Positions 12,983 through 26,982 of a stretch of 56,577 bases of DNA are shown piece after piece. Every line of letters begins with the position of its first letter. The stretch's first letter is position 1. The notes below the pieces were generated by a model, which was not told where the DNA came from, did not search any database, and saw only the letters and a program-made list of their open reading frames with translations. The stretch lies in the NCBI GenBank assembly GCA_949299395.1, contig CASGAB010000002.1, positions 177,051 to 233,627 on the forward strand. The letters are read 5' to 3'. The stretch is from an uncultured bacterium. Lineage in GTDB: Bacteria; Bacillota_I; Bacilli_A; RFN20; CAG-826. A program made the position numbers and the translations under genes.

Positions 12983-15166
12983 GTGAAATATTTACTTTCC
13001 ATTGTTACTGAACATAAAGTTTTAAGATTAGATAGGAATTTCCTATATTTTTCTAATGAACCGGTAAGTGTTGGATCACGTGTTTTTATTAATTTTAATG
13101 GTCAAAATTTGATAGGCTTCGTTTTAAAAACTGAAGGATTTGAAAATTTAGATGAAAAAACAAAGGAATTAGGTTTCAAAATCAAAGAAATTAATGGAAT
13201 TATCGATGAAAAACCTATTATTAATTCTAAATTATTGAAACTTGCCTCTATTTTAAAGGATCGATATGTTTATCCTTTAATCGGAGTTTTAAATACAATG
13301 CTTCCGCCTTCTTTAAGAAGTGAGAAGTCTTTTATTAATAAACCAAAAATCTCATATATTACTTTTTATGAATTGGTCGATGAAACTTATCAAGCGAAGA
13401 ATAAATATGAAGAAAATTTATTAAATAAATTTAAAAATAGTAGCTCACGATTAGTTTTAAAATCTGAAGTTAATGATAGTAAAACATTAGATAATCTTAT
13501 TTCTCTTGGGGTCATTCAAGAAAAGACTGAAGAAAAATATCGTTTTAATACTAAACAAATATTTAAATTTGAAAATGAGTTTGAGTTAAATGAAGAACAA
13601 CAAGGAGTTTTTGATAGAATATGTGTTTCACGTGAAAACATCTATCTTTTAAAGGGTGTCACAGGAAGTGGCAAAACTTTAATTTATATTAAATTAATTG
13701 AAGACGGATTAAAAAATGGTGGTGGAACATTAATTTTAGTTCCTGAAGTTGCTTTAACTCCATTAATGATTTCGCATATTAAATCTTATTTTTATGAAGA
13801 AATTGCAGTTTTACATTCTTCTTTAACAAGTGCAGAAAGATATGATGAATATCGTAAAATTTCATCAGGTAAAGCTCGAATTGTTGTTGGAACTAGAAGT
13901 GCTATTTTTGCTCCTATTTCAAATTTAAAATATATCATTATAGATGAAGAACATGATGAAAGTTATAAACAAGAACAAGATCTTACTTATAATGCAAAAG
14001 AAGTAGCTTTTTATAGAAGTCAAATTGAGGGGTGCAAGGTAATTTTAGGTAGTGCAACTCCATCCGTTGAAACAATGGCTAAAGCAAAAAGCGGAAAATA
14101 TAAACTACTTGAACTACATCAAAAATTTTATAAACAAGAAATCGATATTTCTCTTGTAGATTTTAAAAATAAACTCGTTTTTAAAAAAGGTTCCTCTATC
14201 TTTTCGGATGTTTTAATAGATAAGATAAAGAAATGCATCGATAATAACGAACAAGTTATTTTGATGATTAATAAAAGAGGTTTTTCAACTTCTTTAATTT
14301 GCGATGATTGTGGATATGTTTATAAATGTCCAGACTGTAATATTCCGCTTGTTTATCATAAAGATAATAATGTTTTATTATGTCATCACTGCGATTATAG
14401 AGTTAAATACACTCATAAATGCCCAATTTGTGGATCAATAAACCTTAGATTTAATGGTTATGGAATCGAAAAAGTTAAAGAAGAATTCGAAAGATTATTC
14501 CCTCTTGTACCTTATTTAACTTTAGACTCAGATACATCACCTTCTTTAAATCAAATTGAAGATGTTTTAAATCAATTTAACCTAAAAAAATGTAATGTTT
14601 TAATTGGAACTCAAATTGTTGCAAAAGGACACGATTTTAAAGATGTTTCTTTTGTTGGAATTATTAACGCCGACACACTTTTAAATATTCAATCTTATAA
14701 AGCAAATGAATATACCTATTCTTTACTTGTTCAAACAATTGGAAGAAGTGGAAGATTTAAAAAAGGTGAAGCCGTTGTTCAAACATATAAAAAAGATAAT
14801 AAAGTTATTAATTATGCGATAAATAACGATTATGATGGCTTCTTTGATTATGAAATGAAGGTTAGAAAAAAGTTTAATTATCCACCATTTTCTAACATTA
14901 TTTCTTTAAGAATTGCTTCGCCAATTATCTATGATTTAAAAGTAAAAACTATTGAAATAAAAAGAGAAATAGAGAAAAAATTACCGAATGACTTAGTTGT
15001 ATTAAGTTATGCTCAACAAAAGTTTAAAAAATATTACTCTTATGTTGTTTATATTAAAACTAAAAATTATGGCGTAACAAAGTCATTCCTACAAGCCCTA
15101 TTATTTAAATACCAAACCTTAAAAAACATCCATTTATACCTAAATATTTCACCTTACGACCTATAA
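12983..15166 (+). CDS. priA: Primosomal helicase PriA
   Basis: Superfamily 2 DNA helicase that restarts replication at abandoned forks. The 727-residue protein starts with GTG 4 nt after gmk. Walker A 'GVTGSGKTLIY', DEAH-type 'IIDEEHDESY', and 'LGSATPSVETM' are intact. The zinc-binding insert has paired cysteines in 'CDDCGYVYKCPDC' and 'CHHCDYRVKYTHKCPICGS'. Motifs V/VI read 'VLIGTQIVAKGHDF' and 'QTIGRSGRF'. Length and motifs are typical. In Bacillus the next genes are def, fmt and rsmB; here def and fmt are missing. Confidence 0.95.
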   Translation: MKYLLSIVTEHKVLRLDRNFLYFSNEPVSVGSRVFINFNGQNLIGFVLKTEGFENLDEKTKELGFKIKEINGIIDEKPIINSKLLKLASILKDRYVYPLIGVLNTMLPPSLRSEKSFINKPKISYITFYELVDETYQAKNKYEENLLNKFKNSSSRLVLKSEVNDSKTLDNLISLGVIQEKTEEKYRFNTKQIFKFENEFELNEEQQGVFDRICVSRENIYLLKGVTGSGKTLIYIKLIEDGLKNGGGTLILVPEVALTPLMISHIKSYFYEEIAVLHSSLTSAERYDEYRKISSGKARIVVGTRSAIFAPISNLKYIIIDEEHDESYKQEQDLTYNAKEVAFYRSQIEGCKVILGSATPSVETMAKAKSGKYKLLELHQKFYKQEIDISLVDFKNKLVFKKGSSIFSDVLIDKIKKCIDNNEQVILMINKRGFSTSLICDDCGYVYKCPDCNIPLVYHKDNNVLLCHHCDYRVKYTHKCPICGSINLRFNGYGIEKVKEEFERLFPLVPYLTLDSDTSPSLNQIEDVLNQFNLKKCNVLIGTQIVAKGHDFKDVSFVGIINADTLLNIQSYKANEYTYSLLVQTIGRSGRFKKGEAVVQTYKKDNKVINYAINNDYDGFFDYEMKVRKKFNYPPFSNIISLRIASPIIYDLKVKTIEIKREIEKKLPNDLVVLSYAQQKFKKYYSYVVYIKTKNYGVTKSFLQALLFKYQTLKNIHLYLNISPYDL

Positions 15167-17011: not shown

Positions 17012-18060
17012 TGTATAATCTTTACGATTTTAAAATAGAAAAATTAGAAGATTTACTTGTTAATAAATATTTCCAAAAGAAATATCGTGCAACTCAACTT
17101 TTCAAATGGATCTATGAAAAAAGAGTTAATGATTTTGATAAAATGAGTGATATTTCTCTTGCTTTTAAAGAAATTTTAAAAACTGATTTTTGTTTAGATA
17201 AACCTAAAATTTTTAAAAAACAAGTTAGTAAAGACGGAACAATTAAGCTTCTACTTGAAATGAAAGATGGAAACTTAGTTGAAACTGTTTTAATGAGATA
17301 TAACTATGGAAATGTTGGCTGTGTTTCTTCTCAAGTTGGATGTAATATGGGCTGCGCCTTCTGTGCTTCAGGTTTTTTAAAGAAGAAAAGAGATTTAACT
17401 GCTGGAGAAATGGTCGGTGAAATCTTAATTTTAGATGAATTATTAAAAGAAGAAGATGAAAATAAAAGAGTTACTCATGTTGTTGTTATGGGAACTGGCG
17501 AACCTTTTGATAATTATGATAACGTTTTAGATTTTATTCGAATTTTAAATCACCCTTATGGATTTGCAATTGGTGCAAGACATTTAACTGTTTCAACATG
17601 CGGACTTGTTGAGGGAATTAGAAAATATGCTGAAGAACATCTTCAAATTAATTTAGCTATTTCTTTACATGCTCCAAATGATGAAATTAGAAATAAACTT
17701 ATGCCAATTTCATTAAAATATCCATTAAATGAACTTATGGATGCAGTTAAATATTATGAAAAAGAAGCGGGAAGAAGAGTAACTTTTGAATATATTCTTC
17801 TTAAAGGTATTAACGATTCTAAAGAAAATGCAAAAGAATTAGCAAAATTAATCAAAGGAACATTAGCTTACGTTAATTTGATTCCTTATAACCCAATTAA
17901 AGAATTGGTTTATCAAAGAAGTGATGAAAGTAGTGTTCATGATTTTTTAGATACATTAACAAAATTAGGTGTTACTGCAACTATTAGAAAGGAATTTGGA
18001 ACAGATATAGATGCCGCATGTGGTCAATTGAGGGCTAAAAATGAAAACAAAAATTTATAA
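17011..18060 (+). CDS. rlmN: Dual-specificity 23S rRNA / tRNA adenosine-C2 methyltransferase RlmN
   Basis: Radical SAM enzyme methylating A2503 of 23S rRNA and A37 of some tRNAs. The 349-residue protein has the [4Fe-4S] motif CxxxCxxC in 'GCNMGCAFCASG', the methyl-carrier cysteine in 'DIDAACGQL' near the C-terminus, and 'MGTGEPFDNYDNV'. Ribosome site AGGAGA. It overlaps the last base of the upstream stop codon and overlaps prpC by 20 bp, so it is translationally coupled on both sides. Confidence 0.96.
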   Translation: MYNLYDFKIEKLEDLLVNKYFQKKYRATQLFKWIYEKRVNDFDKMSDISLAFKEILKTDFCLDKPKIFKKQVSKDGTIKLLLEMKDGNLVETVLMRYNYGNVGCVSSQVGCNMGCAFCASGFLKKKRDLTAGEMVGEILILDELLKEEDENKRVTHVVVMGTGEPFDNYDNVLDFIRILNHPYGFAIGARHLTVSTCGLVEGIRKYAEEHLQINLAISLHAPNDEIRNKLMPISLKYPLNELMDAVKYYEKEAGRRVTFEYILLKGINDSKENAKELAKLIKGTLAYVNLIPYNPIKELVYQRSDESSVHDFLDTLTKLGVTATIRKEFGTDIDAACGQLRAKNENKNL

Positions 18061-18802
18061 GGGAAAATATTCCTTTTTATGCGATATAGGAAAGGTTAGA
18101 AAAACAAATGAAGATCGAGTAAAAGCTCTATCTAATTCTTTTAATAATGTTTTACTTGTTGTTGCTGATGGAATGGGCGGGCATCGAAAAGGCGAATTTG
18201 CTTCAAGTGAAGTTGTTGAAACTTTAGGAAAAGAATTCCTCAAAAAAGGTCATTTCACTTCCTTTTTCGATGCTCATTATTGGCTTTGTTCAACAGTAAA
18301 AAAAATTAATAAAAGAATTTTCAATCTTCAAGATAGTGATGAAAAATATCGTGGAATGGGTTCAACTGTAACAGTTGTTTTAATTTACAAAAGAAGACTC
18401 ATGGTTTTAAATGCTGGCGATTCGAGATGCTATGCAATTAAAGATGGAAAACTTGAACTTTTAACTGAAGATCAAACTTATGTTAGATATTTAATTAACT
18501 CTGGTCAAATTAGTGAAACTCAAGCTTTAACTCATCCTAAAAGACATTATTTAACGAATGCAATCGGACTTTTCCCAACATTCTCATATGATTTAAATAT
18601 TTATGAATATCGTGGTGAAACACTCTTTTTATGTAGCGATGGACTTTATAATAATGTTTCTGCATCTGATATTGAAGCAAACTTAAAATCAAACAATTCT
18701 GTTGATGATAAAGTACGTTCGCTTGTTAATTTAGCTAATTATAATGGTGGAAGCGATAATATTTCCTGTGTTTTATGGGAGCCTATAGATGATAAAGATT
18801 AA
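18041..18802 (+). CDS. prpC: PP2C-type serine/threonine phosphatase
   Basis: Dephosphorylates targets of the neighbouring kinase. The 253-residue protein has the PP2C metal motifs 'VVADGMGGHRKGE', 'LNAGDSRCYAI', 'LCSDGLYNNVS' and 'GGSDNISCVL', and the start motif 'CDIGKVRKTNEDR'. It overlaps rlmN by 20 bp and the kinase by 14 bp. Complete and expected to be active. Confidence 0.95.
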   Translation: MKTKIYKGKYSFLCDIGKVRKTNEDRVKALSNSFNNVLLVVADGMGGHRKGEFASSEVVETLGKEFLKKGHFTSFFDAHYWLCSTVKKINKRIFNLQDSDEKYRGMGSTVTVVLIYKRRLMVLNAGDSRCYAIKDGKLELLTEDQTYVRYLINSGQISETQALTHPKRHYLTNAIGLFPTFSYDLNIYEYRGETLFLCSDGLYNNVSASDIEANLKSNNSVDDKVRSLVNLANYNGGSDNISCVLWEPIDDKD

Positions 18803-19685
18803 TGATTTAATCGATGATAGATATAAAATCAAAGCTAGCATCGGTCATGGTGGTATGAGCGATGTTTTTGAAGGCTATGATATAGTCATGAAAAGACCTG
18901 TAGCTTTAAAGATTTTAAACGAGGAATCTGTTAATAGCCCTCAAAATTTAATTCGTTTTGAAAATGAAGCTCGAATTGCTGCAAGTTTATATCATCCAAA
19001 TATTGTAAGAATTTATAATTACGGAAGTTATGAAGGCGCACTATTTATTGTTAACGAACTTCAAAAAGGTCAAACAATTAGAGATACATTAAACTTTAAA
19101 AAATTTCTCTCTTTACCTGAAAGTTGTCAAATAATGATTCAAATTCTTGAGGCATTAAGTTTTATTCATTCAAAAGGAATAATTCATAGAGATATTAAAC
19201 CTCAAAATATCTTTTATGGAAGTGATGGAATAGCTAAAATTGCTGATTTTGGAATTTCAATGTTTAAACACTATAACTTAAATATTGATGAACCAAAAAA
19301 AGTTGTTGGAACTCCTCAATATTTAGCTCCAGAGGTTATTAAAGGATATAAACCAAACGAGCAATCAGATATTTATGCAGCCGGAGTTACTTTTTTTGAA
19401 CTTTTAACTGGATATTTACCTTATGATGATGAAAATGCAAATAAAGTTGCGCTTGATCATGTTAAAAAAGATATTCCTTCACCACTTCAATATATGCCTG
19501 ATTTACCACAAAAATGTGAGGATATTGTATTAAAAGCTACTTCAAAAGATTTAACTTTCCGTTATCAAAGTGCTGAAGAAATGTTAGATGATGTTAAAGA
19601 ACTTTATGAAGATAAAGAAATCATTAAAAAATCGACTCCGCTATTTAATCGTTTATTTGGAATGATTAAGAAAAATATTGGATAA
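18789..19685 (+). CDS. prkC: PrkC-like Ser/Thr protein kinase, catalytic domain only
   Basis: Hanks-type kinase of 298 residues. The glycine loop 'IGHGGMSDVFEG' (18-29), Lys41 in 'VALKIL', 'HRDIKPQN' (133-140), 'DFG' (153-155) and 'GTPQYLAPEV' are all intact, so it should be active. Bacillus-type PrkC is about 650 residues with a membrane helix and extracellular PASTA repeats; this protein stops 20-25 residues after the kinase domain with a basic tail and has neither. It is therefore predicted to be cytosolic. It overlaps prpC by 14 bp and rpe starts 7 nt downstream; rsgA, found here in Bacillus, is missing. Confidence 0.92.
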   Translation: MIKINDLIDDRYKIKASIGHGGMSDVFEGYDIVMKRPVALKILNEESVNSPQNLIRFENEARIAASLYHPNIVRIYNYGSYEGALFIVNELQKGQTIRDTLNFKKFLSLPESCQIMIQILEALSFIHSKGIIHRDIKPQNIFYGSDGIAKIADFGISMFKHYNLNIDEPKKVVGTPQYLAPEVIKGYKPNEQSDIYAAGVTFFELLTGYLPYDDENANKVALDHVKKDIPSPLQYMPDLPQKCEDIVLKATSKDLTFRYQSAEEMLDDVKELYEDKEIIKKSTPLFNRLFGMIKKNIG

Positions 19686-21110: not shown

Positions 21111-21302
21111 TTATTTTGCATTAGATTTATTGAGGCTTCTATATGCTCTAGCACTCATTCTAACTTTAACAATTTGACCATTAATTTCAATTTTATATGT
21201 ATGGAGATTAACATCCCATCTTCTTCTTGTAGCTCTTAAAGAGTGTGAGCGTTTATTTCCACTAAGAGGGTGTTTACCGGTAATTGGACAAACTCTTGAC
21301 AT
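21111..21302 (-). CDS. rpmB: 50S ribosomal protein L28
   Basis: A 63-residue basic protein starting 'MSRVCPITGKHPLSGNKRSH' and containing 'LRATRRRWDVNLH', typical of L28. Start 21302 is chosen over an upstream ATG at 21344 because AAGGAGG lies 7 nt before it and the family begins here. In Bacillus rpmB also lies opposite to the surrounding genes just after rpe, so the order is conserved up to this point; the SMC operon follows instead of yloU/yloV. Confidence 0.95.
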   Translation of the reverse strand: MSRVCPITGKHPLSGNKRSHSLRATRRRWDVNLHTYKIEINGQIVKVRMSARAYRSLNKSNAK

Positions 21303-21548
21303 TTCTTTTACCTCCTTAACTTCAATGCTTATAGATATTATCATAAAAAAATATTATAAGCAAATGTAAATTTATATTCCTTTTAAGGAAAAGTATCGAA
21401 TATTTTTGTCTATTTTTAAAAGTTTTCACGTATAAACTTTTATCTTTTCGACTTTCTCTTATTCTTTAAAATATAATTTTAAAGAAAAATGCCCATTTTA
21501 TCTTTTTTTAAAGATATATTTTTGTTATAATTTTTCTTGGTTTTAACT
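21303..21548. promoter_or_regulatory. Divergent control region of rpmB and the JetABC-like operon, with four dyads
   Basis: Dyads seen: TTCCTT/AAGGAA (21377-21390); AAAAGTTT (21418-21425) with AAACTTTT (21434-21441), whose spacer contains ACGT so that 10 of 12 pairs match; 11-bp arms at 21462-21472 and 21476-21486 around TATAATT; TATCTTT (21499-21505) with AAAGATA (21510-21516) around a T4 loop. A TATAAT box (21526-21531) lies 17 nt before the operon ATG, with no ribosome site. Such density in 246 bp suggests regulation, although the sequence is AT-rich. Confidence 0.45.
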
Positions 21549-22979
21549 ATGAATTTATTTGATATTGTACCATCTAATTATTTTTCAATATTTGCTGGAA
21601 AAAATAGAGAGATTTATATAGAAAGTTTAGCTTTACTTTACTCACTTCTTCAAAATGATGAAGCAGTTATTAAAAAAAGTGATTTTTTGAATGCTTTAAA
21701 AGAAAAAGAGAAGAACTTAGCTCTTTTTAGTTTAGATGACGAAGAATTAAGTGAAGATGAAAAAAATAATTTAACTATGGATAGTGCTTCTTCAAAAGCT
21801 TCTTTTGTTATTAGAAGACTTGAAGAAACCGGTTGGATAGATATTTCAATGGATATTGATAATTATGAAGAAGTTATTGTTCTTCCTGCTTATACAATTT
21901 CTTTAATTAAAACATTTAGTGATATTGTTAGCGATGAAGAAGCTCCATATTTATCACTTGTCCATTCAACCTATAGTGAACTTAAACTTGAAGATGAAGA
22001 TATGGATGAACTTTTATATCCAACACTTTTAAGATGCTATGAAAATACTAAAAAGTTAAAAGTTGAACTTATAACTTTAGTCCATTCAATTAGAATCTTC
22101 CAAAATAAATTAACAAAATTATTCGATACTAATGATGTTTTACATAGTTATTTTGATGTTTATAAGAAAAAAATTAGTGATCGATACTATCATCCACTTA
22201 AAACTTTTGATAGCGTTGCTAAATTTAAAAGACCAATTATTAGAATCTTAAATAAGTGGCTTAACGATAAAGAAATTAGAGATCGCCTTATTGTTCAAGC
22301 TTCAATTAGTGCTAAAAACAATAATAAAAAAGAAATTGAAAACGATATTATCACTAAAATTAACTATATTAGCGACACTTATGAAAGTTTAAATACTTTA
22401 ATCTCATCAATCGATAGAGAAAATAACCAATATACAAAATCTTCAACTCAAAAGATTTTATATCTTAATAACACCGATCGTACGATTAAAGGACATCTTG
22501 ATAACATCTTTAAGCATTATGCATCAAATGTTAATGATAATCGTGCGTTAGCTGAAATTTTATCAAAAATGCAAGAATCCTCTTCATTTTATGAACAAGG
22601 ATTTATCGATAGTGAATCAATAACTCTTCCAGTTCTTAAAAAATATCGCGAAAGCGGTGTTCCAATGGAAATTGTTAATTTTGAAAATGATGATTTCTTA
22701 ATGGATAACTTCTTGGAAGAAACAAAAAATATCTATACCGATGAAAGAGTTTATTCATTTATGGAAAGATCTTTTGATAATAACAACAAAATTGAATCAA
22801 AAGATTTAAGAATTAAAAATTATGATTCACTTATTTGCTTAATTCTTGCAACTGTTAAAGGTGAAGATGAAGCTTCTTTCTATACAATTGAAGAATTATT
22901 ACCAAAACAAATCGAAAATAATGAATTTATCATTCCTAACTTTGCATATATTAAAAAAGATAATAAGGAGGAAAAATAG
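21549..22979 (+). CDS. JetA/MksF-like kleisin subunit of an SMC complex (DUF5716 type)
   Basis: A 476-residue protein that looks like the kleisin-type subunit A of Wadjet/Mks complexes: N-terminal 'LFDIVPSNYFSIFAGKNREIYIE' (quoted in part as NYFSIFAGKNREIY), a winged-helix-like start and long helices after residue 190. The call rests on the DUF5716/JetA-like N-terminus, its length and on lying directly ahead of a small MukE-like and a large SMC gene. It would bridge the SMC heads. Start ATG 21549 is chosen over a TTG at 21537; there is no ribosome site and TATAAT is 17 nt upstream. Stop is TAG, 3 nt before the next gene. Confidence 0.72.
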   Translation: MNLFDIVPSNYFSIFAGKNREIYIESLALLYSLLQNDEAVIKKSDFLNALKEKEKNLALFSLDDEELSEDEKNNLTMDSASSKASFVIRRLEETGWIDISMDIDNYEEVIVLPAYTISLIKTFSDIVSDEEAPYLSLVHSTYSELKLEDEDMDELLYPTLLRCYENTKKLKVELITLVHSIRIFQNKLTKLFDTNDVLHSYFDVYKKKISDRYYHPLKTFDSVAKFKRPIIRILNKWLNDKEIRDRLIVQASISAKNNNKKEIENDIITKINYISDTYESLNTLISSIDRENNQYTKSSTQKILYLNNTDRTIKGHLDNIFKHYASNVNDNRALAEILSKMQESSSFYEQGFIDSESITLPVLKKYRESGVPMEIVNFENDDFLMDNFLEETKNIYTDERVYSFMERSFDNNNKIESKDLRIKNYDSLICLILATVKGEDEASFYTIEELLPKQIENNEFIIPNFAYIKKDNKEEK

Positions 22980-22982
22980 TTT

Positions 22983-23627
22983 ATGTTTGAAGAAAAATAT
23001 AACGAACTATCATATGGAGAAAAAAACCAATTCGGAAGCGTCATCAACCGCCTTCTTTTAAAAGGTTTTGTTGTTAGAGATTTATATGATAATAAAGAAA
23101 AAATCGTCAAAATTTCCCCTGATTATCGTTTTATTGAAAAATATTATGAATTAATTAATGACTATTTATCTTTTTCAAACTGGCGTATTGAAATCGATAA
23201 AATTTTAGGTGTTGTTTCTTTATTTAATGATAACGATGAAAATAGAATTCGTTTAGATAGAGAATCTTCACTTGTTTTATTTGTTTTAAGACAAATTTAT
23301 GAAAATGAAAGAAATCAAACTTCATTAAGTGGGGAAAGCATTTATATTACAACCCCAATTTTAATTAGAACAATGCTTGAACATGGTATTACTATGCCAG
23401 GCAAAAAATTAACCGGAAGAAATATTGCTAAAGCTTTAAGATTTTTAGCAAATCACAATATTATTACTAAAGTTAGTGGAAATTATGATGAAGGTAACGT
23501 TGCTTTTTATATTTTACCTTCCATTGTTTATGCACTTGATAATGAAAAAATCGCTGCAATGTCTCAAGCTTTAGATAACTTAAATAGAAGAGAAGACGAG
23601 GTACTTAACGATGAAAATATTGACTAA
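22983..23627 (+). CDS. JetB/MksE-like accessory subunit of an SMC complex
   Basis: A 214-residue winged-helix-rich protein of MukE/MksE/JetB size. 'FEEKYNELSYGEKNQFGSVI' starts a first domain and 'ITMPGKKLTGRNIAKALRFL' lies in a second. It sits between the kleisin and SMC genes, the order A-B-C of Wadjet and F-E-B of Mks. An AAGGAGG ribosome site lies about 11 nt upstream inside the end of the first gene, and it overlaps the SMC gene by 17 bp, so the three proteins are made together. The call is from context and length more than from motifs. Confidence 0.68.
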   Translation: MFEEKYNELSYGEKNQFGSVINRLLLKGFVVRDLYDNKEKIVKISPDYRFIEKYYELINDYLSFSNWRIEIDKILGVVSLFNDNDENRIRLDRESSLVLFVLRQIYENERNQTSLSGESIYITTPILIRTMLEHGITMPGKKLTGRNIAKALRFLANHNIITKVSGNYDEGNVAFYILPSIVYALDNEKIAAMSQALDNLNRREDEVLNDENID

Positions 23628-26600
23628 AATTAAACTTATCAATTGGCATTATTTTTGGAATGAAACAATTGATATTAAACCAATCGTCTTTTTAACAGGT
23701 TTAAATGGTAGTGGTAAATCAACCTTAGTTGACGCTTTTGAAGTTGTCATGCTTGGTGATACAACTGGAAGAAGCTTTAATAAAGCAGCTTTAGAAAAAT
23801 CTGCTCGTAGTTTAAAGGGCTATCTTAGGGGTGAAGTCGGCGATGATCTTGAAGGCGGCTTTAAATATTTAAGAAATGGAAGATTTACTTCCTATATTGT
23901 ATTAGAATTCCATGATGATTTAGCAAATAGCGATTTTGCTATGGGTATTGTTTTTGATTGTTTTGATGATGGGAGCGAAGAACATCGTTTCTTCTGTTTA
24001 GAAGATAAAATTCCTGAAAATGAATTTATCGAAAATAATGTTCCGCTCGATTATAAAGGATTAAGTGGCTTCTTTAACACAAATTATAAAGATAAATATC
24101 GTTTCTTTGATTCAAATAAACAATATCAAGAATTCTTAAAGAAAAAGATGGGTGGTTTAAAAGATAAATATTTCTCACTTTTAAAGAAAGCTACATCATT
24201 TACTCCAATCACAGATATCACAACTTTTATTACAGAATACGTTTGTGATCCTCAACAAAATTTAGATTTAACAGTTCTTCAAGATAACATTGCTCAATAT
24301 CAAAAATTACAAGTTGAAAGTGAAAATTTAAAGAAAAGAATCACAAAACTTGATGAAATTAAAACAAGTTATGATCTTTATAAAACTCAAGAAAGAGACT
24401 TCACTTTAACAAGATATTTAATTGAAAGATGTGAACTTTATAATGATGAAGAGAAATTAAAAGCCTTTAAAAATGAAGTTATCGATTCTTCAAAAAGACT
24501 TGCTGAAATCGATGGCGAACTTGATGAATATAAATCAACTTTAGATGAACTTGAAAAAAGAAAAATCCACATTATTCAAGATAGAATGAATAATGATGTT
24601 GCTAAAATAACTGAAGATTTATATGAACAAAAAAAGAGTGTAACAGCTGAAATTAAAGAAATTAATGATGAAATTAATGAAGTTAAAGTAAGTTTAACTC
24701 GTTACATTAGTGAATTTAGCGATGAAGCAAATAAATTATTAATTGATTTAAATGAAATCGACAAAGATGTTCTTGATGAAGATAAAGAAGAAGATATCGT
24801 CCAAATCTTACATTCATCAAATAAAGTTTTAGAAGTTTCAAAAGCTTTAGAAGCAAAAATTAATAAAAATGTTTTAGATTTAACAAAAGAAGATTTAAAT
24901 AACTATAAAGATGCTTTAAAAGATTTCAAAAATAGTGTTTCTACATTAGCAATTTCTTTAGCAAGACAAATTCATAATCTTGAAAAAAGAATCGCTTCAA
25001 TTAAAGAAGAAGAAGCATCAATTAAAAAAGGAACAAAACCATTCAATGCTCGTTTAGTTTATGTTCGTGATCGTTTAAAAGATGAATTAAGAATTAAATT
25101 TAATAAAGAAATTGATGTCGAACTTTATTGTGACTTAGTTGATATTAAAGATAAATCCTGGTCAAATGCAATTGAAGGATATTTATCAAGCCAAAAATTT
25201 AATATCTTTGTTGCTCCAAAATATTATTTAGAAGCTTATAAAATTTTAAAAAGATTATTAGAAGAATATTCTTTCTATGGAACAGCTTTAGTTGACCAAG
25301 AAAAGATTATTGATAGAGATTATCAAGCAGATAGCGATTCACTTGCTACTGAAATTGATACCGATCATGAAGGAGCAAGAGCTTATACTAACTTCTTAAT
25401 TGGTAGACTTCATAAGAGCGAAGATGTCGATGAAGCTAGAGAAAGTGGTAATGGTATTACAAGAGAATGCGATTTATATCGTAATTTCACACTTTCTAGA
25501 ATCAATCCTCGTTTATATCAAGAAATTTATATTGGTCGTAATTTAGATGAAAGATTCTTAGAAGATAAAGCTCGCCAAATGAAAGCAATTATGGCAAATT
25601 TAGCTTCTTATAAGAAACTTAATTCTTTAATTACTGAAGCAAATAACTTAGAAGTTATTTCTAATGGTGAAATTGATCACTTATTATCATCTTTAACAAG
25701 AGGGAACGAACTTAAAGGTTATCAAAAAACTCTTGAATATATTGAAGGTGAACTTAAAGAACATGACACCGCTTTACTTGCTTCACTTGATAAACGTTTG
25801 GAAGATGTTAATGACGATATTGCTGATATTACTCGTCAAAGAGAAGATTTAATTTTAGAAAAAGGTAACTTAACTAAACAAATTGAATCTTTAAAAAACG
25901 AAAAAATTACTTATGCTGAATCATTAATTGAAACTAGAAAAAATAATTTAGTTTCAAATTATGATGAAACATTAATTAATGAAGCAGGAATCCCACTTTT
26001 TGAAGAAAAAGTTAATAGTGGATTATCATATTTTGATATTTTAAGTGAAGCAAATGCATCATTAACCCGCTTCCAATATTTATATAACAATTCATTTAAT
26101 CAACTCTGTAAATTAAGAAGAGATTATGTCCATGAATATCATCTTTCTTATGATGCAGATAGCAGAGAAAATAAAGCATTTGATGAAGAATTAGTTGAAT
26201 TTAGAGATGTAAAACTCCCTGAATATAATGACCAAATTCATGACGCATATTTAAAAGCAACCCAACAATTTAAAGATGACTTTATCTTCAAATTAAGAGG
26301 TGCAATTGAAGATGTTGAAGATCAAATTGAAAATTTAAATGAAGCATTAGCTCAATCTTCATTCGGAAGAGATTCTTATAAATTTACAGTAAAACCATCT
26401 CAAGTATTTAAAAGATACTATGACATGTTAAAAGATGATATAATTTTAGAAGGTGGCGAAGATGAATCCTTATTCTTAGAAAAATATAAGGATGTCATGG
26501 AAGATCTATTTAGACAAATTGTCGATGTAAATGATCCTGACAATTCATCTGAAGAATTACTTAATAATATTATAAGATTTACCGATTATCGTTCTTATCT

Positions 26601-26982
26601 CGACTTTGACTTAATCGTTTATAATAAAGATTCAGGCAAAGAAGAAAGATTATCTATAATGATTAAAAAGAAGAGTGGTGGCGAAACTCAAACCCCATTC
26701 TATATCGCAGTTTTAGCATCATTTGCTCAACTATATCACGTTCATGAAGAAGGCGAAATCGCAAATACTTCAAGATTAATTATTTTCGATGAAGCTTTCT
26801 CTAAGATGGATAGAGGTAGAATTAAAGAAGCTGTTAAACTCTTAAGAAAATTCAATTTACAAGTTATTATCTCTTGTCCAACTGATAAAGTTGCTGATAT
26901 TACCGAACTCGTAGACGAAACATTAGTTGTATTACATCATAAGAACTCTAGTTCAGTTCGTATGTTCTCAAAAATTTCCTAA
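23611..26982 (+). CDS. JetC/MksB/MukB-like SMC ATPase
   Basis: Motor subunit of the complex, 1123 residues. Walker A 'GLNGSGKST' (30-38), the signature 'KSGGETQTPFYIAVL' (from about 1021) and Walker B 'RLIIFDEAFSKMD' (Asp1060-Glu1061) are intact. Two long coiled-coil stretches (about 230-470 and 690-930) flank a hinge-like globular region containing 'DKSWSNAIEGYLSSQKFN'. The C-terminal 'LQVIISCPTDKVADI' matches the JetC type. It should dimerise and hydrolyse ATP on DNA. The next gene is glgC; no JetD/MksG (TOPRIM-containing nuclease, DUF3322/DUF2220 type) is present. Without it the complex resembles a condensin rather than plasmid defence. Confidence 0.85.
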   Translation: MKILTKIKLINWHYFWNETIDIKPIVFLTGLNGSGKSTLVDAFEVVMLGDTTGRSFNKAALEKSARSLKGYLRGEVGDDLEGGFKYLRNGRFTSYIVLEFHDDLANSDFAMGIVFDCFDDGSEEHRFFCLEDKIPENEFIENNVPLDYKGLSGFFNTNYKDKYRFFDSNKQYQEFLKKKMGGLKDKYFSLLKKATSFTPITDITTFITEYVCDPQQNLDLTVLQDNIAQYQKLQVESENLKKRITKLDEIKTSYDLYKTQERDFTLTRYLIERCELYNDEEKLKAFKNEVIDSSKRLAEIDGELDEYKSTLDELEKRKIHIIQDRMNNDVAKITEDLYEQKKSVTAEIKEINDEINEVKVSLTRYISEFSDEANKLLIDLNEIDKDVLDEDKEEDIVQILHSSNKVLEVSKALEAKINKNVLDLTKEDLNNYKDALKDFKNSVSTLAISLARQIHNLEKRIASIKEEEASIKKGTKPFNARLVYVRDRLKDELRIKFNKEIDVELYCDLVDIKDKSWSNAIEGYLSSQKFNIFVAPKYYLEAYKILKRLLEEYSFYGTALVDQEKIIDRDYQADSDSLATEIDTDHEGARAYTNFLIGRLHKSEDVDEARESGNGITRECDLYRNFTLSRINPRLYQEIYIGRNLDERFLEDKARQMKAIMANLASYKKLNSLITEANNLEVISNGEIDHLLSSLTRGNELKGYQKTLEYIEGELKEHDTALLASLDKRLEDVNDDIADITRQREDLILEKGNLTKQIESLKNEKITYAESLIETRKNNLVSNYDETLINEAGIPLFEEKVNSGLSYFDILSEANASLTRFQYLYNNSFNQLCKLRRDYVHEYHLSYDADSRENKAFDEELVEFRDVKLPEYNDQIHDAYLKATQQFKDDFIFKLRGAIEDVEDQIENLNEALAQSSFGRDSYKFTVKPSQVFKRYYDMLKDDIILEGGEDESLFLEKYKDVMEDLFRQIVDVNDPDNSSEELLNNIIRFTDYRSYLDFDLIVYNKDSGKEERLSIMIKKKSGGETQTPFYIAVLASFAQLYHVHEEGEIANTSRLIIFDEAFSKMDRGRIKEAVKLLRKFNLQVIISCPTDKVADITELVDETLVVLHHKNSSSVRMFSKIS

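Follow-up and report, generated by a model that had tools for sequence, protein, structure and literature searches.

A type I Wadjet motor without JetD as a probable housekeeping condensin in Bacilli lacking Smc-ScpAB

In Wadjet systems, JetABC is an extruding, size-sensing motor, and JetD becomes active only once extrusion has run its course (PMC10586767, PMC12647877). MukBEF, also a kleisin-KITE-SMC complex, has replaced Smc-ScpAB in a bacterial lineage, and reviews merely speculate that MukBEF originated from Wadjet-like defence complexes (PMC10586767). In Borrelia burgdorferi, the SMC-like MksB affects chromosome folding, as seen by Hi-C (PMC10406323). A search of open PMC papers found no earlier report of a Wadjet motor replacing Smc-ScpAB.

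The locus described here lies in a stretch of 56,577 nucleotides from an uncultured bacterium (hereafter the window). It resembles type I Wadjet (JetABCD; EptABCD; MksBEFG) in the full-length homology of JetA, JetB and JetC, in gene order and in matching the same PADLOC models, but differs in the lack of jetD, the housekeeping location, the vertical, near-universal presence in the order and a host without Smc-ScpAB. The last feature is shared with hosts of a MukBEF-like housekeeping condensin, and the JetC and JetA models match the MukB and MukF folds. MukBEF is the precedent for a replacement here, although the family is JetABC rather than MukB/MukF, the phylum is another one and the origin is separate. 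Borrelia differs in having Smc and ScpA and lacking MksE and MksF, whereas a full three-subunit complex without Smc is found here. The likeness to Smc-ScpAB itself, a different family that is absent from the host genome, lies only in the proposed cellular role. With a probability of about 83%, this JetABC is a type I Wadjet motor without JetD, kept as a housekeeping condensin in place of Smc-ScpAB.

The jetABC locus and its subunits

The features of the locus are as follows.

21354-21548, + strand: intergenic region between the divergent rpmB and jetA, a candidate promoter region (from sequence)
21549-22979, + strand: jetA, type I Wadjet kleisin subunit, 476 aa, ATG start (PADLOC, Pfam, AlphaFold2 model)
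22983-23627, + strand: jetB, type I Wadjet KITE/MukE-like subunit, 214 aa (PADLOC, Pfam)
23611-26982, + strand: jetC, type I Wadjet SMC ATPase, 1123 aa (PADLOC, AlphaFold2 and Foldseek)
23698-23724, + strand: JetC Walker A, GLNGSGKST, intact (alignments)
25048-25545, + strand: JetC hinge domain, approximate, residues 480-645 (AlphaFold2 secondary structure between two coiled-coil arms)
26674-26703, + strand: JetC ABC signature, SGGETQTPFY (within KSGGETQTPFY), intact (alignments)
26773-26799, + strand: JetC Walker B, RLIIFDEAF, intact (alignment)

The three + strand genes are tightly coupled, with a 17 nt overlap between jetB and jetC, and an in-frame TTG is present at 21537 besides the ATG of jetA at 21549. 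Upstream, rpmB lies on the opposite strand (about 21111-21353), and downstream, glgC starts 56 bp past the end of jetC; these are the flanks named by the initial annotation, and the window holds no JetD gene, as it had stated. The promoter-like TCGACT-18-TATAAT at 21448-21477 does no more than agree with the consensus, as chance alone would allow in this region.

The kleisin-like, MukE-like and SMC labels first given to these genes were right, and in the profile search proposed at that stage the best matches of all three proteins, each full-length, were to type I Wadjet models: JetA with JetA1 (PDLC00449, 400 bits, 3.4e-120), JetB with JetB1 (PDLC00502, 216 bits, 1.1e-64) and JetC with JetC1 (PDLC00519, 1098 bits, E=0). 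Pfam matches were to the JetA family PF18982 in JetA (298 bits), to DUF4194 in JetB and to SbcC_Walker_B. Compared with the JetC1 score, the match of JetC to the Pfam MukB N-terminal model is just 23.6 bits, at a cut-off of 23. Judged by these profiles, the best family for the three subunits is type I Wadjet. In the AlphaFold2 model of JetC (mean pLDDT 84), a head can be recognised together with two long coiled-coil arms and, between these, a central hinge; in the PDB, Foldseek matched this model best to Wadjet-II JetC, MukB and E. coli JetC. JetA was modelled with less confidence (pLDDT 75), and its best matches are Wadjet JetA and MukF chains. The alignments bear out that Walker A, the signature and Walker B are intact, as noted at the outset.

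JetD and Smc-ScpAB in the host genome and the order

The host genome is 1.24 Mb in size and 97% complete. Profile searches of this genome, window included, found no JetD (PF09983), no ScpA and no ScpB; nor was a full-length Smc present, the best match (E=7e-6) covering no more than coiled coil or ABC. In B. subtilis and other control genomes, Smc, ScpA and ScpB were detected by the same searches, and the JetD search matched in 17/144 relatives; thus, the absences are not a failure of the search. JetD is also recognised in the control Geosporobacter subterraneus (JetD1, 401 bits). A JetD elsewhere in the genome, which would have spoken against the initial annotation, was looked for and not found, and since smc, scpA and scpB are likewise missing, JetABC would replace rather than assist Smc-ScpAB. 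Because no other SMC condensin was found in the cell, chromosome compaction and segregation is the most economical role.

The same result bears on an unlikely alternative, a defence module in which JetABC still detects small DNA circles and calls in a nuclease other than JetD, or a toxin, in trans. The strong matches to Wadjet defence models fit such a module, and a trans effector or a nuclease of another family could escape a sequence search, about 3% of the genome being missing. However, the genome has no other SMC condensin, and no conserved fourth gene accompanies the motor: jetC is followed by glgC in most loci of family f1 and by other genes in other families. Furthermore, the copy found here is near-universal, syntenic and vertically inherited in the order, unlike the patchy true jetABCD.

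This distribution was examined in 144 relatives, whose named loci belong to uncultured Bacilli, Mollicutes and Erysipelotrichales MAGs, including UBA4855; the order and family are presumably GTDB order RFN20 and family CAG-826. In a study of these orders, they are described as having small genomes without peptidoglycan genes (PMC10868615). Profile searches found JetC in 98/144 and JetA in 99/144 relatives, and about 90/144 carry a nuclease-less JetABC of the same clade as the window copy (the main clade), with JetC 33-85% identical to that of the window. ScpA and ScpB scored above the cut-off in only two of the 144, both outside the order. One genome of the order without ScpA and ScpB carries the C-terminal half of an Smc (390 bits) on a lone contig (G127:C55:381-1463), which is probably contamination.

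JetD scored above the cut-off in a patchy set of 16-17 of the 144 relatives. In the JetD genomes of the order, the jetC on the same contig, where found, is a diverged copy of 24-29% identity, so that these jetABCD resemble normal Wadjet systems with a patchy distribution. Beside main-clade jetABC, a local JetD profile found no JetD neighbour in any examined locus of families f1-f6 and f8; the same profile matches beside the second, diverged jetABC copies and in two Clostridia. An ORF adjoining jetC in G142 was considered as JetD and ruled out. Main-clade JetABC and a separate full jetABCD occur together in G002, G006, G060 and G117, among others, and this coexistence implies that the two kinds do different jobs.

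Two further groups were observed in the order. Genus g25 (L105, L106, L164, L165) lacks the main-clade copy; its own JetABC is a different one, diverged (25-27% identity) and likewise not accompanied by JetD, and is possibly a second replacement. In addition, several genera of family f1 (g7, g13, g18, g19, g23, g27, g31 and g33; G042, G043, G037, G057, G051 and others), at 96-100% completeness, gave no match to full Smc, ScpA, ScpB, JetA or JetC, i.e., they apparently have no SMC condensin. Since so many f1 genera have neither Smc nor JetABC at this completeness, such small genomes may be able to do without a condensin.

Inheritance and phylogeny of JetABC

In family f1, the gene context rlmN-PP2C-STK-rpe-rpmB-jetABC-glgCDA-leuS is largely kept wherever the contig reaches (28 named loci), apart from occasional insertions or the absence of some glg genes in more distant genera, and the glg neighbourhood of jetABC is also found in families f3 and f5. 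The question raised at first, whether related genomes keep the operon between rpmB and glgC, is thereby answered in the affirmative for the family. The PP2C phosphatase and Ser/Thr kinase pair (window 18041-19685), which adjoins rlmN and rpe, is syntenic with jetABC family-wide. The distances of JetA, JetB and JetC follow those of leuS (Mantel r 0.88, 0.75 and 0.86, respectively), and NG86 estimates of dN/dS against the two nearest relatives are 0.13-0.15 for jetABC, compared to 0.12-0.13 for both leuS and glgA. Main-clade jetABC is thus shown to have been passed on vertically, with a purifying selection comparable to that on leuS; synteny and selection of this kind point to a core gene set rather than to a defence island in decay or on the move. 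The initial annotation had leaned towards a core chromosome-organising role, a function that we likewise infer from the lack of JetD and of Smc-ScpAB and from the family-wide context.

That the locus is a decaying Wadjet remnant left after jetD loss is very improbable. The absence of JetD and the reduced genomes would suit decay, but the three genes are intact, the ATPase motifs are kept in nearly all JetD-less JetC copies in the alignment, and the genes are retained over whole families under a selection equal to that on neighbouring core genes.

The closest JetABC outside the main clade are those of Geosporobacter subterraneus (L084) and a Peptococcaceae MAG (L082), whose JetC are 37-38% identical and nearer to the main clade than the true Wadjet copies within the order (24-29%). 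In both, jetD directly follows jetC. Since these nearest relatives carry JetD, the main clade descends from, or shares an ancestor with, four-gene systems. In JetC trees, both Clostridia fall within the JetD-less rows of the order, and because of this nesting a topology that unites all JetD-less JetC of the order in one clade was weakly rejected (AU p 0.024). The JetD-less copies of f16, f26-f28 and f10, the second copies of f14 and those of one f1 genus stand separately among JetD-bearing lineages. Altogether, 8-9 changes between JetD-less and JetD-bearing labels were counted, a provisional number from a quick tree in which JetD-bearing systems outside the class are thinly sampled. This scatter argues for repeated events, and the tree suggests several separate losses of JetD.

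When conservation was contrasted between JetD-less and JetD-linked copies, no site in JetC, JetA or JetB stood out as clearly diagnostic. A review describes an IFDR motif at the JetB N-terminus; it is not recognisable in the JetD-linked JetB sequences of Bacilli. The JetB N-terminus is longer in many JetD-linked copies, but short in L082 and long in the JetD-less copies of f16 and f14.

Link with ScpA loss and proposed mechanism

At the class level, 336 genomes, each at least 90% complete, were compared, with ScpA in 165, JetC in 99 and JetD in 26. JetD-less JetABC occurs in 84/171 ScpA-negative versus 6/165 ScpA-positive genomes (Fisher p 2e-23, from a hand tally of the tables; the p value is not phylogeny-corrected and is inflated by relatedness). 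Among genomes with JetC and without ScpA, 84/85 carry a JetC unaccompanied by JetD, whether genome-wide or on its contig (only G256 departs from this), and other JetD-less JetABC clades sit in families likewise without ScpA. Where JetC and ScpA occur together, JetD-less copies are found in 6 of 14 genomes, namely five of f14 and one with a very diverged copy (G235, f20).

This linkage to the loss of Smc-ScpAB is left unexplained by non-cutting silencing, in which JetABC would compact incoming circular plasmid or foreign DNA without cleavage. Wadjet size and shape sensing comes from JetABC (PMC10586767), which agrees with such a role, but we regard it as slightly less likely even than the trans-acting defence module. 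On balance, type I Wadjet motors seem to have been domesticated several times independently in Bacilli as sole condensin, each time with loss of JetD and Smc-ScpAB: in this order, in the probable Acholeplasmataceae f16, in f26-f28 and in f10. In these extant lineages, a defence SMC motor seems to have turned into a housekeeping condensin, sometimes in a cell that also has a full Wadjet. In phytoplasma relatives, the partition repertoire is described as sparse (PMC3322544), and if f16 is Acholeplasmataceae, the finding bears on chromosome organisation in this group. In defence catalogues, Bacilli JetABC without JetD should not count as an anti-plasmid system.

The five f14 genomes (L150, L151, L152, L157, L158) have ScpA together with JetD-less JetABC, in some cases beside a full jetABCD. 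The combination of Smc-ScpAB and JetD-less JetABC in f14 is possibly an intermediate state.

For the housekeeping condensin, the following mechanism may be envisaged. An ancestral type I Wadjet would have lost JetD while the cell retained the motor; with JetD removed, a motor of the MukBEF type remains. Dimers of JetA (kleisin) and JetB (KITE) would bridge the JetC heads, and, if they behave like known JetABC and MukBEF, two such motors may pair via the JetA N-terminus and extrude loops of chromosomal DNA with ATP. With no JetD to cut, DNA would be compacted and sisters separated where a full Wadjet would destroy a plasmid. Loop extrusion, the binding of a chromosomal substrate, the role in segregation, essentiality and any loading by the retained ParB are what we infer for this motor.

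The parA and parB genes are kept in the host genome downstream of an rsmG-like gene (parAB at L178:8660-10313). In f1 genomes, ParB retention goes with main-clade JetABC (34/38 versus 15/32, p 1.7e-4, a hand tally with p uncorrected for kinship). Canonical parS was not found in the loci examined. The parS-like sequence TTTCACGTGAAA occurs near dnaN/recF (L179:1538 and 9743) and at window position 13626, inside priA, which is commoner than chance (0.02 expected in the window).
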